Assembly: GCA_951813295.1 (NCBI GenBank) | Contig: CATOTI010000003.1 | Location: forward strand, 186,001-250,000 | DNA from: an uncultured Pseudomonadales bacterium | Lineage (GTDB): Bacteria; Pseudomonadota; Gammaproteobacteria; Pseudomonadales; Azotimanducaceae | DNA length: 64,000 nucleotides | Direction of reading: 5' to 3' | Shown here: piece by piece, positions 630-6,406 of the stretch | Position numbering within the stretch: the first letter of the stretch is position 1 | How the letters are laid out: each line of letters begins with the position of its first letter | Position numbers and translations under genes: made by a program | Notes under the pieces: model-generated | Database searches by the model: none | What the model saw: the letters and a program-made list of their open reading frames with translations, nothing else | What the model was told of the DNA's origin: nothing

Positions 630-1148
630 CTACGCCGTGAGAGCGCCGATCACCGCCTCGACACACGCATCGGCTTTAGCGCGCATCTCGTCGTCCGTCG
701 CGTCCTGAATCGGATGCGGAACGAAGATGCACTGCGCGTCTTTCATGCCGAGCGCGTTGCGCTGGGTTGCGGCCGCTTCTTCGAACTCGGAGCTTGCGAT
801 GCTGACCGAAGGAACTCCCTGAATCTCGAACCAGACCGTGTCATGCAAACTGCACGTGGTACACGATCCTCAGTCGGCGAGTCCTTCGATGACGAAATCG
901 TTGGCTTCGCGAATGTCCTGACGCAGTGAATCCGGCGCCGGTTTCGTGAAGGTCGGTTTCGAGTAGCGATTGATCGTCACGTTCGGCAGACGCGTCGCGA
1001 TCAGCGTTTCGAGCTGATCGAGCAGGATGTTGCCGCGTGGCTTGGAGATATCGAGCAGCGCGACCGTCCCGGCGACCTCTTCCGGTCTGGGGCTCAGTTG
1101 CCGCTCGACGGGGACGCGTTCGTCGCCCGGATCGAGAATCGTCGTCAT
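630..1148 (-). CDS. UGSC-family selenoprotein with in-frame UGA (Sec) codon
   Basis: Two same-frame segments (1148-873 and 869-630) are separated only by a TGA at 870-872. Read through it, the product is about 172 residues with the motif D-U-G-S-C-T-T-C-S at residues 92-100, the signature for which the UGSC family is named; cysteine homologs carry DCGSC. The N-terminal part (LDP...VPVERQLSPRP, VALLDISKPRG) and the part after the TGA (HDTVWFEIQGVPSVSI) are both family-like, so this is one gene. Sec would be in a U-x-x-C redox motif. The ATG has an SD (AGGAGC) overlapping the stop of the upstream gene, 9 nt away, so it is translationally linked to the thioredoxin-like gene. Function is unknown; a thiol/selenol redox role is inferred. 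A nonsense pseudogene is the alternative, made unlikely by the motif and hairpin. Confidence 0.88.
834..872 (-). promoter_or_regulatory. Bacterial SECIS-like hairpin directly after the UGA
   Basis: Starting one base after the UGA (minus strand), GATCGTGT (868-861) pairs along all 8 positions with ACACGGTC (841-834), with one T-G wobble. Inside it GTGC pairs with GCAT around an apical loop AGTTT that has a G in its second position. The UGA-to-apical-loop distance is 18 nt, within the range usual for bacterial SECIS elements, which need a small loop with an early G for SelB binding. The fold was derived by eye. Confidence 0.75.
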
Positions 1149-1157
1149 TTGACGCTC

Positions 1158-2717
1158 CTAGTCTTCGATTTTCTGTGAGACCGGGATGGAGCCTATCGCG
1201 CCTCCCGCCCAGCCGTGAAATACGCCGGAAAACTTTCCGGCGTCAGAACCTGCTACCACGATGTGGATATTGTCCTTGGATGCGAACTTCGGCACGCGTT
1301 GCTCGCGCCGCTCCGGCGGCATCGCGGCCAACCGCTCGGGCGAGATTCCACCGCCGATGTCCTCCGTCGAGACCAACTCGCTCAACGGCCGCGCCGTGAC
1401 GTACTGAATGTGCTCGCGGATGTCGTCTTTCGAGAAGTCGTCGTTCGCGAGCGTGTCGACATGCTCTGGACAGACCACGAGGATCGTATCGCTCGACATG
1501 TGCGCGCGGACGTTGTGTTGCGCTTCCATCGACGTGGCGAACGAACCAGCGAGGGCTTTCGCCGTGCGCGACGACTGATCGATACAGATCGTCGGGCCGC
1601 TCGACATCGCAAAGACCGTTATCACGGAATCTTCCGCGTCGAAACCGCGCTCGACGTGCAGCGGTTCCCAGTTGCTGCGCTCCTCGAATTCGGGGAAACA
1701 CATCGTGATCTTCATCGGGTTACCGAGCGTCGAACGTTCGGTACCGCCCGGCCGGGCACCACCGATGTTGCGGCAGCACAGGCGCAGCGCCCGACCGATG
1801 GCCATGTTGGCGCGCGAACCCTGGCCCAACGCGCCTAGCTTCATGTTCATGCCGAGGCGATGGCGAATCGGGCCGTTGATGATCATCACAGGCGTGGCAC
1901 CCATGGTCGTCGCCATCACACCGTGGATGTTGAACTCATCGGTACAGACCGCCTGGATACCCGCGATGATCACCGGCATGTACTCGGGCTTGCAGCCCGC
2001 CATCACGGCGTTGATTGCGATCTTCTCGACTGTCGCCGGTGCCATGTTCGGCGGCATCGTGGCGATCACTTCCTGACTGTCGCGCTTGGTCCCACCGATC
2101 ATCCGCAACACGCGCTCGGGTGTCGGTGGGATAACCGGGAGCCCGTCGGTGAAGCCCTGGTCGTAGAGGAACTCGTGCACGTCGTCGGCGGGCGCAATTT
2201 CGATCTTGCGGGCCCGCAAGGGACTGTTCTCCGACTCGGCGCGCAAACGATCGGCAATCAACGGATCCTGCGTCAGCGACCCGCAGCCCGGTCGCCAATC
2301 GGGTAAGGCATCCCAATCGATCGCTGCATCGGGTGCGTGATCTGCGATGAACGACTGCCACTCGCCTTTGTCGAAACCGATCACGCGGCTCGACTCGATC
2401 CCAGCCGCGTCGGTCGCGAACATCATCGGCACCGTGTCGAGGTCGTAAGCGAACGACACCTTGAGCGCGGAATCATCGAGCACCGGCACGTCGAGGTGGT
2501 GCTTGTCGATCATGATCTGGTTGCCGTCCGCCGTCTGTCCGGGCGCGAGCACCCGAACGCCCGATGCGTGCATCGCATCGAGCACCGGCATGATGAGGTT
2601 GCAAGTCGGGCAATCCTCTTTCACGAAACAGATGATCGTCGGCGCTGCGTCGGGGAAGACGTGATTGGCGCCACCCATGTCGTCGAGTGAAAACGCGGGA
2701 AGTGCGGGATCGGGCAT
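1158..2717 (-). CDS. Thioredoxin-fold protein fused to a UGSC-partner domain
   Basis: A 519-residue protein. Residues 1-150 look like a thioredoxin fold with a C-P-T-C active site near residue 36 (FVKEDCPTCNLIMPVL). Residues 185-519 are a second domain starting DVHEFLYDQGFTDGLPVIPP, rich in conserved Cys (MAGCKPEY, RLCCRNIGG), of a type I associate with UGSC proteins; its activity is unknown to me. Its ATG overlaps the TAA of the RraA-like gene (TAATG, 2715-2719), so the two are translationally coupled, and the UGSC gene follows 9 nt downstream. A plausible role is to reduce, or accept electrons from, the Sec/Cys pair of the UGSC protein. No signal peptide is evident, so it is probably cytoplasmic. 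Confidence 0.75.
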   Translation of the reverse strand: MPDPALPAFSLDDMGGANHVFPDAAPTIICFVKEDCPTCNLIMPVLDAMHASGVRVLAPGQTADGNQIMIDKHHLDVPVLDDSALKVSFAYDLDTVPMMFATDAAGIESSRVIGFDKGEWQSFIADHAPDAAIDWDALPDWRPGCGSLTQDPLIADRLRAESENSPLRARKIEIAPADDVHEFLYDQGFTDGLPVIPPTPERVLRMIGGTKRDSQEVIATMPPNMAPATVEKIAINAVMAGCKPEYMPVIIAGIQAVCTDEFNIHGVMATTMGATPVMIINGPIRHRLGMNMKLGALGQGSRANMAIGRALRLCCRNIGGARPGGTERSTLGNPMKITMCFPEFEERSNWEPLHVERGFDAEDSVITVFAMSSGPTICIDQSSRTAKALAGSFATSMEAQHNVRAHMSSDTILVVCPEHVDTLANDDFSKDDIREHIQYVTARPLSELVSTEDIGGGISPERLAAMPPERREQRVPKFASKDNIHIVVAGSDAGKFSGVFHGWAGGAIGSIPVSQKIED

Positions 2718-3424
2718 TAGTGGATCTCGGCTGCTTTGCCTTGGGCTTCTTTGAGTTTGTCGAAGCTGAAGCCAGGCTGTTGTGCGGCGGCGATGATGAC
2801 GCCTTCGCGTTTGGCGATCTCGGCGGCGGCGTCGAGCACCTTGTCGGCGACTTCGAACGGGATGACGACCGCGCCATGCTGATCGGCATGAATCAGATCG
2901 CCATCACGAACCCGCATACCGCAGACGTTGACGGGCTGACCGTAGTTCACCGTGTGAACGAACGCGTGCGATGGGCCGACGCGTCCCGCCCACATCTGAA
3001 ATCCATCGGCGACGTCGGGAAGATCGCGCACGCTGCCGTCGGTGATGACGGCCTGGCAACCGAGCCCGTAGTGAATGTTGCTGTTCACTTCTCCCCAGTA
3101 CGAGCCATAGCCCTTCGCGTCACCGTCGAGGTCCTGGATTACTACGATCGAGGGTTTCGGGCCGCCGCTGTCGATGTACTTGTAGTAGCCGTCCGACATC
3201 TCGCGTGCTTCCGAACCGCGCAGATCCGACGGATGCATCGCGCGAATACACGCGGTGCGGGCGTAGCCGACCATCACGCCGAGTTCCGGACGCGTGCAAA
3301 CGAGCGGCTCGACCGTGTAGCCGAATCCGCGGCGTTCCGGGATGACGATCTCGAGCGCGTTACACGCGGTCGGCGTGTCGATAGTGGTCAGTTGCGAAAT
3401 TAACTCGGCCGAGATCTCCGGCAT
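2717..3424 (-). CDS. RraA-like / HMG-CHA aldolase family protein
   Basis: About 235 residues of the RraA-like fold, whose enzymatic members are divalent-metal class II aldolases or oxaloacetate decarboxylases. The stretch GCQAVITDGSVRDL carries the D-G-x-x-R-D pattern used for metal and pyruvoyl substrate binding, and the late HADQHGAVVIP block is typical of the family. I chose the ATG at 3424 (MPEISAELI) because a strong SD (GGGGGAG) lies just upstream; the reading frame is open 16 codons further but without an SD. It is the first gene of a leftward operon with the Trx-fold and UGSC genes. Substrate unknown; ribonuclease-inhibitor function (true RraA) is less likely in this catabolic context. 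Confidence 0.85.
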   Translation of the reverse strand: MPEISAELISQLTTIDTPTACNALEIVIPERRGFGYTVEPLVCTRPELGVMVGYARTACIRAMHPSDLRGSEAREMSDGYYKYIDSGGPKPSIVVIQDLDGDAKGYGSYWGEVNSNIHYGLGCQAVITDGSVRDLPDVADGFQMWAGRVGPSHAFVHTVNYGQPVNVCGMRVRDGDLIHADQHGAVVIPFEVADKVLDAAAEIAKREGVIIAAAQQPGFSFDKLKEAQGKAAEIH

Positions 3425-3599
3425 GTCTCCCCCCTCAAGGATTGCTGAAAGCGGCCCGTCGATCAGGGCCATCCGGTGCCATCATACCGCGCTCACACCC
3501 GGTTCTATCGCGATAAGCTGCGTTCCGGTTTTGCTACGACGCCGCCATCAGCTGGTGCTAGTCTTGCCGGTCCCTTGGATTTGCATAGCAGGGACACGT

Positions 3600-5291: not shown

Positions 5292-6257
5292 GTGACGACT
5301 CTCGAAAACTGGCGGGCGACGGCATTCAACACCGCGCCCAACTCGACCAACCGCATCCACTCGGATGAGATGGCGCAGGCCTACGGCTTCAAGGGCGGCC
5401 TCGTGCCCGGCGTCACGATCTCGAGCTATCTCATGCACCCGGCCGTCGTCGCCTGGGGCGAAGACTGGCTGACGCGTGGTTTTGCCCACGTGGTCGTCAG
5501 CAAGCCGCTCTACGACGATTACGAATTCGAAGTTGAGATCTCGGAGCCGACGGACACTTCATACCAGGCAGTGCTCGTCGATCAGGAAGGCACGCACTGC
5601 GCCAACGCCTTCATGCGCCTCACCGACGACATGCCCGAACCGCCGGTCCGCCGTGGCGACGCGATGCTCGACTCCGACGCGGAAATCCCGCCCGTGAACA
5701 AGGAAGTGCTCGAGCACCTGTGTGAAACCGGCATGCGCGCCATGTCGATCCGTTGGAATGCTGAACACTCGACCGCGAGCTACCTGCGCGATCCTGCCCA
5801 AATGGCGCCGATCCACCAGTTCGGCAACCAAGGCTTCGCCAACGGTGCCTTCCTGCTCGGCACCACCAACTGGGTGCTGTCGAACAACACCTACATGAAC
5901 CCGTGGGTGCACCTGCAGACCGACTCGCAGTACTTCGCCCCTGTCGCCGACGGCGACGAACTCATCGTCGAATGCGCGGTAAAGGACCTCTTCGAGAGGA
6001 AGGGGGTGATCGCCCGCCGCGATCTTCGACAGCGGTTCGCCCGCCGCCTCGAGCGCTTTCGCCGGCACCACCCGACGCGTCTGCGTCTTCCGCCCATCGA
6101 AGATCGCTCGCACCATCCGCGCCGAGAAGATGATCGAATGCTCTTTCGCTTGCCCCACGTCCGCTCCCGACCAGAAAAAGCACCGTACCCGACGCTCCCA
6201 TCGTTGACAGCCCTAAGGTCGGCGTTAACATACGCCGGCCCTAACCGGGGTGCTTAG
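5292..6257 (+). pseudogene. MaoC/hotdog-fold protein, 3' truncated by foreign DNA
   Basis: The first ~238 codons encode a hotdog-type protein with a MaoC-like look (TNRIHSDEMAQAYGFKGGLVPGV). Such proteins act on acyl-CoA hydration or thioester chemistry. Start is GTG at 5292, 3 nt after the amidohydrolase stop; a TTG one codon earlier is an alternative. Native-looking sequence ends at about 6006 (KDLFERKG). The remaining ~80 codons to the stop at 6257 are Arg/Pro/His-rich because they read antisense through a fragment of another gene (5998-6158) and toward the tRNA-Val. The gene has therefore lost its C-terminus by recombination next to the tRNA pair. The product may be unstable or inactive. 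Confidence 0.75.
5998..6158 (-). pseudogene. N-terminal fragment of an ASCH-domain-like (phage/island type) gene
   Basis: On the minus strand from a GTG at 6158 about 53 codons read HSIIFSARMVRAIFDGRKTQ followed by TRRVV. This is the conserved start of small ASCH-like proteins common in prophages and islands (pattern: IIFS-MVRAI-DGRKTQTRR). After about 5998 the frame becomes antisense to the hotdog gene, so the rest is missing. It marks the junction at which foreign DNA replaced the hotdog gene's 3' end. Confidence 0.65.
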
Positions 6258-6323
6258 CTCAGTTGGGAGAGCGACGGCCTTACAAGCCGTAGGTCGCAGG
6301 TTCGACCCCTGCAGCACCCACCA
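6248..6323 (+). tRNA. tRNA-Val (anticodon TAC)
   Basis: A 76-nt cloverleaf with acceptor GGGTGCT/AGCACCC fully paired, D-arm GCTC/GAGC, anticodon stem ACGGC/GCCGT with loop CTTACAA (anticodon TAC), T-arm with GGTTCGACC, and encoded ACCA. It reads GUA/GUN valine codons. It sits 6 nt before tRNA-Asp, a common tandem. Confidence 0.97.
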
Positions 6324-6329
6324 CCGTAC

Positions 6330-6406
6330 GGAGCGGTAGTTCAGTTGGTTAGAATACCGGCCTGTCACGCCGGGGGTCGCGGGTTCGAGTCCCGTCCGCT
6401 CCGCCA
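6330..6406 (+). tRNA. tRNA-Asp (anticodon GTC)
   Basis: A 77-nt cloverleaf: acceptor GGAGCGG/CCGCTCC, anticodon stem CCGGC/GCCGG with loop CTGTCAC (anticodon GTC), T-arm CGGG-TTCGAGT-CCCG, encoded GCCA. Its 3' 25 nt start the 166-bp repeat that recurs at 34137, so this tRNA end is a likely attachment site for past integrative elements. Confidence 0.97.

Follow-up and report, generated by a model that had tools for sequence, protein, structure and literature searches.

A UGSC-family selenoprotein gene and its thioredoxin-domain partner in an uncultured Pseudomonadales bacterium

We analysed a 64,000-nucleotide stretch of DNA (hereafter, the window) from an uncultured Pseudomonadales bacterium. 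Judging by sequence comparison, positions 1148-630 on the minus strand almost certainly constitute a true UGSC-family selenoprotein gene, in which an in-frame TGA is decoded as selenocysteine (Sec). The full explanation, that SelB and a SECIS element decode this codon, and that the product is one half of a two-part reductase completed by a partner encoded immediately upstream, is likely. The features are listed in Table 1.

Table 1. Coordinates of the UGSC gene, associated features, and Sec islands. Unprefixed positions refer to the window.
Feature	Position	Strand	Description
RraA-like (aldolase/RraA superfamily) gene	2717..3472	-	TAA overlaps partner ATG (TAATG)
Operon partner, 519 aa	1158..2717	-	N-terminal ResA/TlpA-like thioredoxin domain, CPTC (C36, C39)
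UGSC-family selenoprotein gene	630..1148	-	172 aa with Sec93; NF041046 and PF24696 matches
In-frame TGA, Sec93, motif D-U-G-S-C-T-T-C	870..872	-	TGA in 80/80 kept homologues
Apical hairpin of predicted SECIS, CGUGCA-GUU-UGCAUG	842..856	-	19 nt between UGA and loop
Sec island	L084:146-4980		Henriciella MAG
Sec island	L085:52-4976		Sulfitobacter noctilucae NB-68
Sec island	L093:57-4942		Alphaproteobacterial MAG

Results

An in-frame TGA joins two open reading frames

With the standard code, the minus strand holds two open reading frames, at positions 870-1148 (92 aa) and 630-848 (72 aa). Hence, gene callers can easily split the gene. Reading TGA 872-870 as Sec gives a single protein of 172 residues, with the sequence ...VIEGLADUGSCTTCSLHDTVWFEIQGVPSV... 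around the site. The start codon is ATG 1148-1146, with AGGAG just 5' of it, and the stop codon is TAG 632-630. The joined protein matches NCBIfam NF041046 (UGSC_fam) across residues 28-171, scoring 165.1 bits against a cut-off of 125, and Pfam PF24696 across residues 4-171, scoring 162.1 bits against a cut-off of 25. Both matches span the TGA and so the joined frame is not due to chance. We rejected a plus-strand reading of 630-1148 because the motif is absent from that frame.

These results bear directly on the initial annotation. It placed the gene at 630-1148 and the TGA at 870-872, which is correct, and left the strand, which is minus, unstated. The two same-frame segments that it joined through the TGA do yield 172 residues containing LADUGSCTTC. 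Its expectation that ordinary gene calling would record two small open reading frames is borne out on the minus strand with the standard code.

The TGA is retained in homologues and is followed by a conserved hairpin

A scan of contigs returned 286 stretches, 244 of which encode UGSC relatives. We kept the best 80 of these 244 loci, and the homologous codon is TGA in all 80. Hence, homologues align across the TGA, a check that had been proposed for the annotated gene. We then compared codon usage among 81 genes (the 80 loci plus the window). Synonymous variation is far lower at residues 95-105 than elsewhere, and is also low at D92. T98 is encoded by ACG, and C99 by TGC, in 81 of 81 genes. Similarly, S100 is AGT for 80 of 80 serines and L101 is TTG for 76 of 78 leucines. 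The nearly invariant codons at residues 95-105 make up the hairpin CGUGCA-GUU-UGCAUG.

Base pairing was counted over 85 sites, 28 of them distinct, a set that takes in the distant paralogues L018, L019, L120, and L121. For the distinct sites, pairing holds in 167 of 168 stem cells and the loop is always GUN (28/28). In L121, the stem carries a compensatory double change, from C-G to G-C. Three gene fusions described below (L156-L158), which are outside the 28 sites, have GUA at the loop position and U-U at the loop-closing pair. The Cys homologue L122 is without a hairpin having a 3-nt loop; its best alternative is a 5-bp stem with a 7-nt loop. Note that single-sequence folding of the hairpins is weak (z between -0.95 and -1.75), so that the argument for a SECIS weighs on conservation. 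We conclude that a conserved hairpin is predicted at the position expected of a bacterial SECIS.

Sec machinery is present in the genome

The window belongs to assembly G000, comprising 5.97 Mb in 3 contigs, with a listed completeness of 98.59% and contamination of 7.4%. All four genes that the initial annotation named as a check (selA, selB, selC, and selD) are present. The gene for tRNA-Sec (selC) is at C1:356963 (68.3 bits). Adjacent selA (540.7 bits) and selB (395.6 bits) genes lie approximately 10 kb from it, and selD is at C1:321939 (272.4 bits). Since these genes are on contig C1, and the window is on C3, the link between gene and machinery depends on binning too. The remaining, weaker, tRNA-Sec matches in G000 look like ordinary tRNAs. 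One scores 47.4 bits, barely over the cut-off of 47; matches this close to the cut-off carry little meaning, since 5 of 14 control genomes also exceed it. Among 30 Sec-UGSC genomes tried, drawn from the 80 loci, 27 have a tRNA-Sec over the cut-off, with best matches of 60 to 76 bits. No match over the cut-off was found in G464, G474, or G476, for which approximately 2.2, 3.1, and 2.8 Mb of sequence were searched respectively.

The two open reading frames obtained by standard gene calling are also what would be expected were the TGA an ordinary stop, leaving a pseudogene or two small proteins. This is scarcely credible, given that the 80 kept homologues all retain the TGA with protein conserved on both sides, that codons 3' of the TGA are nearly invariant around the hairpin, and that the genome encodes Sec machinery. 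We rejected a pseudogene, or a plain stop, on the basis of TGA retention, the nearly invariant codons, and the hairpin. Taken with the family match across the TGA and the sel genes, these observations support the selenoprotein interpretation put forward initially.

Sec and Cys forms, and paralogues

UGSC is found in 36 of 58 relatives (own genome included), covering 22 of 43 genera. Those 58 relatives contain 74 matches of at least 99 bits, a count that omits 6 weaker rows; a single TGA is present in 73 of the 74, and the remaining match has no stop. The stop-less relative, L159 (G507:C111:9475-9957, minus strand), reads DSEC at the site, where the U position is occupied by a residue other than Sec or Cys. 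The 6.5 kb examined around it contained no partner motif (see below). When 200 genomes were drawn evenly from the phylum, UGSC was found in three: G000 and G139, both with TGA, and G143, with Cys. The G143 motif is DCGSCTSC, in agreement with the earlier statement that Cys homologues exist alongside Sec forms. A selB match of 454.8 bits is present in G139, and none over the cut-off was found in G143, the genome of the Cys homologue L122. Cys99 is not universal, being replaced by Trp in L121 and in the fusions.

Two further UGSC-like genes in G000 were not part of the initial annotation, nor were the operon partner and the possible PrdB-type link described below. The first, at G000:C2:1084121-1084624 (minus strand; L018:1498-2010), has a TGA, encodes DUGSCSTC, and is 28% identical. 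A partner paralogue, without a thioredoxin domain, is directly upstream. The second, at G000:C2:728191-728907 (minus strand; L019:1114-1857), encodes DUCSAASC, with Sec adjoining Cys, and is without Cys96. It has a long insert near profile position 120-130 and a similar hairpin. By eye, nearby open reading frames resemble cupin and GST proteins, and no partner motif was found within 11 kb around the gene. In G139, locus L121:3122-5639 (minus strand) contains UGSC and then two different partner paralogues. Here, the motif reads DUGSCSSW, with Trp in place of the third Cys.

UGSC is regularly paired with a second protein

In the window, UGSC is the last gene in a run of three, following the RraA-like gene and the gene for the 519-residue partner. 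It starts 9 bases past the end of the partner gene. The partner has a C-terminal domain with the motif TDGLPVIPP. Searches of Pfam and NCBIfam gave only weak redoxin-type matches for the partner, and none for its C-terminal domain. By tblastn, the partner is upstream of UGSC, on the same strand, in each of the 80 kept loci. In 76 of the 80, an open reading frame with the partner motif ends between a 4-base overlap with, and a 108-base gap from, UGSC. A CxxC motif lies within the first 110 residues of 61 of these 76 frames, given a crude choice of start. Among 36 chosen partners, C36 and C39 do not vary. Partners without the thioredoxin domain occur in L018, L120, and L121. In the same kind of draw from the phylum, a search of 200 genomes for the partner returned exactly the three that have UGSC (own included). 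Inspected by eye, the 6 partner matches adjoin a UGSC gene or, once (in G139), lie one gene further away.

In congeneric relatives, 9 UGSC matches lie in frames of 550-564 aa. We examined three (L156, L157, and L158, from G501, G498, and G493) and, in all three, UGSC and the second domain of the partner form one frame. A UGSC/Unknown_1 fusion was reported in a 2008 survey of GOS data (PMC2398784) and, from the description there, L156-L158 are probably the same fusion, with the same pair of domains. The window differs in having separate genes, and a partner with an extra thioredoxin domain. From these patterns in the sequences, UGSC and its partner probably act as a two-part redox enzyme.

The predicted fold of UGSC is flavodoxin-like

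An AlphaFold2 model of UGSC, built with 41 sequences, has a pLDDT of 89.9, a pTM of 0.85, and (beta-alpha)5 order. Sec is at the start of helix 94-109, after the third strand, and Cys96 and Cys99 are beside Sec93. The best Foldseek matches in the PDB are the FMN reductase MsuE, azoreductases, WrbA, and flavodiiron proteins, with TM scores of about 0.5. A few further matches are to TIR domains or lumazine synthases. A sequence search for solved relatives of UGSC gave none that was convincing. The model hence predicts a flavodoxin-like fold, rather than that of thioredoxin. For the partner, the model has a pLDDT of 88.2 and a pTM of 0.63. ResA is the best match for the thioredoxin domain (approximately 135 residues, E 4e-9, target TM 0.79). 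The 50 Foldseek matches listed are all thioredoxin-fold and uninformative on the second domain.

The 2008 survey considered a thioredoxin-like fold likely for UGSC (PMC2398784, from the part consulted). With that suggestion, the UxxC motif, and the thioredoxin domain of the neighbouring protein in mind, UGSC could be a thioredoxin-type selenoprotein that reduces thiol-disulfides or peroxides generally, with no specific substrate. We consider this unlikely. UGSC shares the UxxC redox motif with thioredoxin-fold selenoproteins (Trx-like and Prx-like) but differs from them in its predicted (beta-alpha)5 fold, and the PDB structures that match it best include FMN reductases, azoreductases, and WrbA; the model hence gives no support to a thioredoxin fold for UGSC, and we set that reading aside. 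Furthermore, that UGSC is regularly accompanied by, and sometimes fused to, a large second protein points to a dedicated enzyme. Since the partner carries the thioredoxin domain, UGSC itself need not be a thioredoxin.

A possible relationship to PrdB and GrdB

G000 has five matches to PF07355, covering the C-terminal part of GRDB. In each of the five proteins, a PVU/PNU/PAU-P motif with an in-frame TGA lies just beyond the matched stretch. Alignment of UGSC with four of these proteins, using hhalign, gave an E value of 0.024 and a probability of 2%. With more diverse rows, E values were 0.0059 (6.3%) and 0.0029 (10.7%), with Sec aligned on Sec, although these probabilities are low. The score for the best alignment (26.8, E 0.0029) exceeded those of all 40 column shuffles (40/40; best 18.1) and of the reversed profile (12.2). 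The score gains from the matching of a Cys-like column. In searches up to an E value of 10, neither UGSC nor five other UGSC-type proteins cross-matched PF07355. This test has little power, as PF07355 matches do not extend to the aligned Sec region. A sequence search for solved structures gave none that was convincing for the PF07355 set (PrdB/GrdB).

The Sec sites of the PF07355 proteins have hairpins at a distance from the UGA similar to that for UGSC. The loop of the best simple hairpin is GUU in L101, L102, and L104, GGUCA in L103, and CGU in L100; the minimum-energy folds of L100 and L102 differ from this hairpin. The L100 gene (G000:C2:772279-772638, plus strand) is PrdB-like and has an in-frame TAG approximately 40 codons before the Sec TGA. 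This may reflect a broken gene, a sequencing error, or another reading. The L104 protein reads UPLD, without the usual Cys.

Common ancestry of UGSC and PrdB is possible, on sequence grounds. Both have Sec in U-x-x-C, followed by a helix, E-x-x-G-I/V-P/A, and a strand, with a weak profile match that is above shuffles. They differ in that UGSC has U-G-S-C, whereas the PF07355 proteins of G000 have U-P-x-C/D, and in that the UGSC partner is different. UGSC and its partner might thus be distant kin of PrdB/GrdB, with a Sec subunit that reductively cleaves a C-X bond in a small metabolite, and a partner that is the substrate-binding subunit, its built-in thioredoxin replacing a separate one. Glycine and proline reductases take electrons from thioredoxin or related carriers, which fits. 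So do the Sec-on-Sec alignment, which extends over the next strand and an HPI/FPL stretch, and the presence in G000 of five PF07355 matches with in-frame TGA codons and similarly placed hairpins. However, the hhalign probabilities of 2 to 11%, the lack of a Pfam cross-match (weak as that test is), and a partner with only weak redoxin-type Pfam matches, and nothing that marks a pyruvoyl subunit, weigh against it. We hold such kinship as a tentative possibility, short of an even chance, and are similarly guarded about PrdB-like chemistry for the pair.

Gene neighbourhood and Sec islands

Using tblastn, an RraA-like gene was detected in 25 of the 80 loci, a CoA-transferase gene in 19, and an amidohydrolase gene in 3, with many flanks being short. 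Since neighbours are so variable, and flanks often short, we name no substrate from them. According to a 2026 review (PMC13188914, in the part consulted), certain other Sec proteins may bind metals, and the pair could similarly handle selenium- or metal-containing compounds, in detoxification or metal binding, instead of an organic substrate. We think this very unlikely, since the scanned neighbours are the RraA-like, amidohydrolase, and CoA-transferase genes, and there is no metal-resistance match among six proteins searched against Pfam and NCBIfam.

In three alphaproteobacterial loci, L084, L085, and L093, selA, selB, and the tRNA-Sec gene immediately precede the partner and UGSC (see Sec islands in Table 1). 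In L084, a 723-aa open reading frame with similarity to selD follows. For the remaining 77 loci, within flanks of at most 5 kb, ARAGORN detected no tRNA-Sec and tblastn with the G000 proteins (E 1e-10) detected no selA, selB, or selD. Upstream of the UGSC gene in the window, at a distance of approximately 5 kb, are genes for tRNA-Val and tRNA-Asp (6248-6406, plus strand). Loci L075, L078, L080, L091, L096, and L099 also have this tRNA pair upstream of the operon.

Discussion

The UGSC family was recognised by 2008 at the latest (PMC2398784) and is listed in a 2026 review (PMC13188914). Selenoproteins with the UGSC motif were described in Geodermatophilaceae in 2017, together with a tRNA-Sec having the anticodon CUA (PMC5330540). 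UGSC is one of the more prominent families of selenoproteins in ocean metagenomes, accounting in one survey for 8.2% of selenoprotein genes (PMC9402790). Clusters of fdoGHI with selABC are treated elsewhere (PMC8124441), and the portion of that article available to us has no mention of UGSC. As described in the portions of these sources consulted, the family is common in aquatic metagenomes, and the window gene differs from it in nothing essential (NF041046, PF24696; GOS survey, PMC2398784): the likeness covers nearly the full length, D-U-G-S-C, and the TGA-coded Sec. Hence, because the family is already described, the gene is a further member of it. We found no function for UGSC in those portions of the literature. 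Similarly, in the open-licence texts consulted in part, the partner, predicted fold, and island have no earlier mention, except for the Unknown_1 fusion. What this analysis adds is the regular partner with a built-in thioredoxin domain, the details of the SECIS, the predicted fold of UGSC, and the compact Sec island.

Our proposed mechanism is as follows. The SECIS hairpin, directly 3' of the UGA, would cause SelB to deliver Sec at residue 93. Most likely, UGSC is then the Sec subunit of a two-part reductase, the other part being the protein encoded upstream. Sec93 would be the catalytic nucleophile and Cys96 would close a selenenyl-sulfide with it. The C-terminal domain of the partner may bind substrate, while its CPTC domain would re-reduce the Sec93-Cys96 selenenyl-sulfide after each turnover. 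For partners without a thioredoxin domain, a separate thioredoxin would presumably reopen the selenenyl-sulfide. More tentatively, the chemistry may resemble that of the PrdB and GrdB Sec subunits of proline and glycine reductases.

A broader reading combines these elements. The pair could represent two-part selenium reductases of a separate class, having thioredoxin in the substrate subunit, and ancestry in common with the Sec subunit of proline and glycine reductases. As a whole, we regard this as somewhat doubtful. That the class spans marine and host-associated Proteobacteria is part of the same reading and is put forward just as cautiously. So too is the notion, speculative at present, that selA-selB-selC, sometimes with selD, travel as an island in some Alphaproteobacteria, with the UGSC pair as client. 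Whichever applies, the protein pair, together with a named strain, Sulfitobacter noctilucae NB-68, makes the function of UGSC open to experiment.
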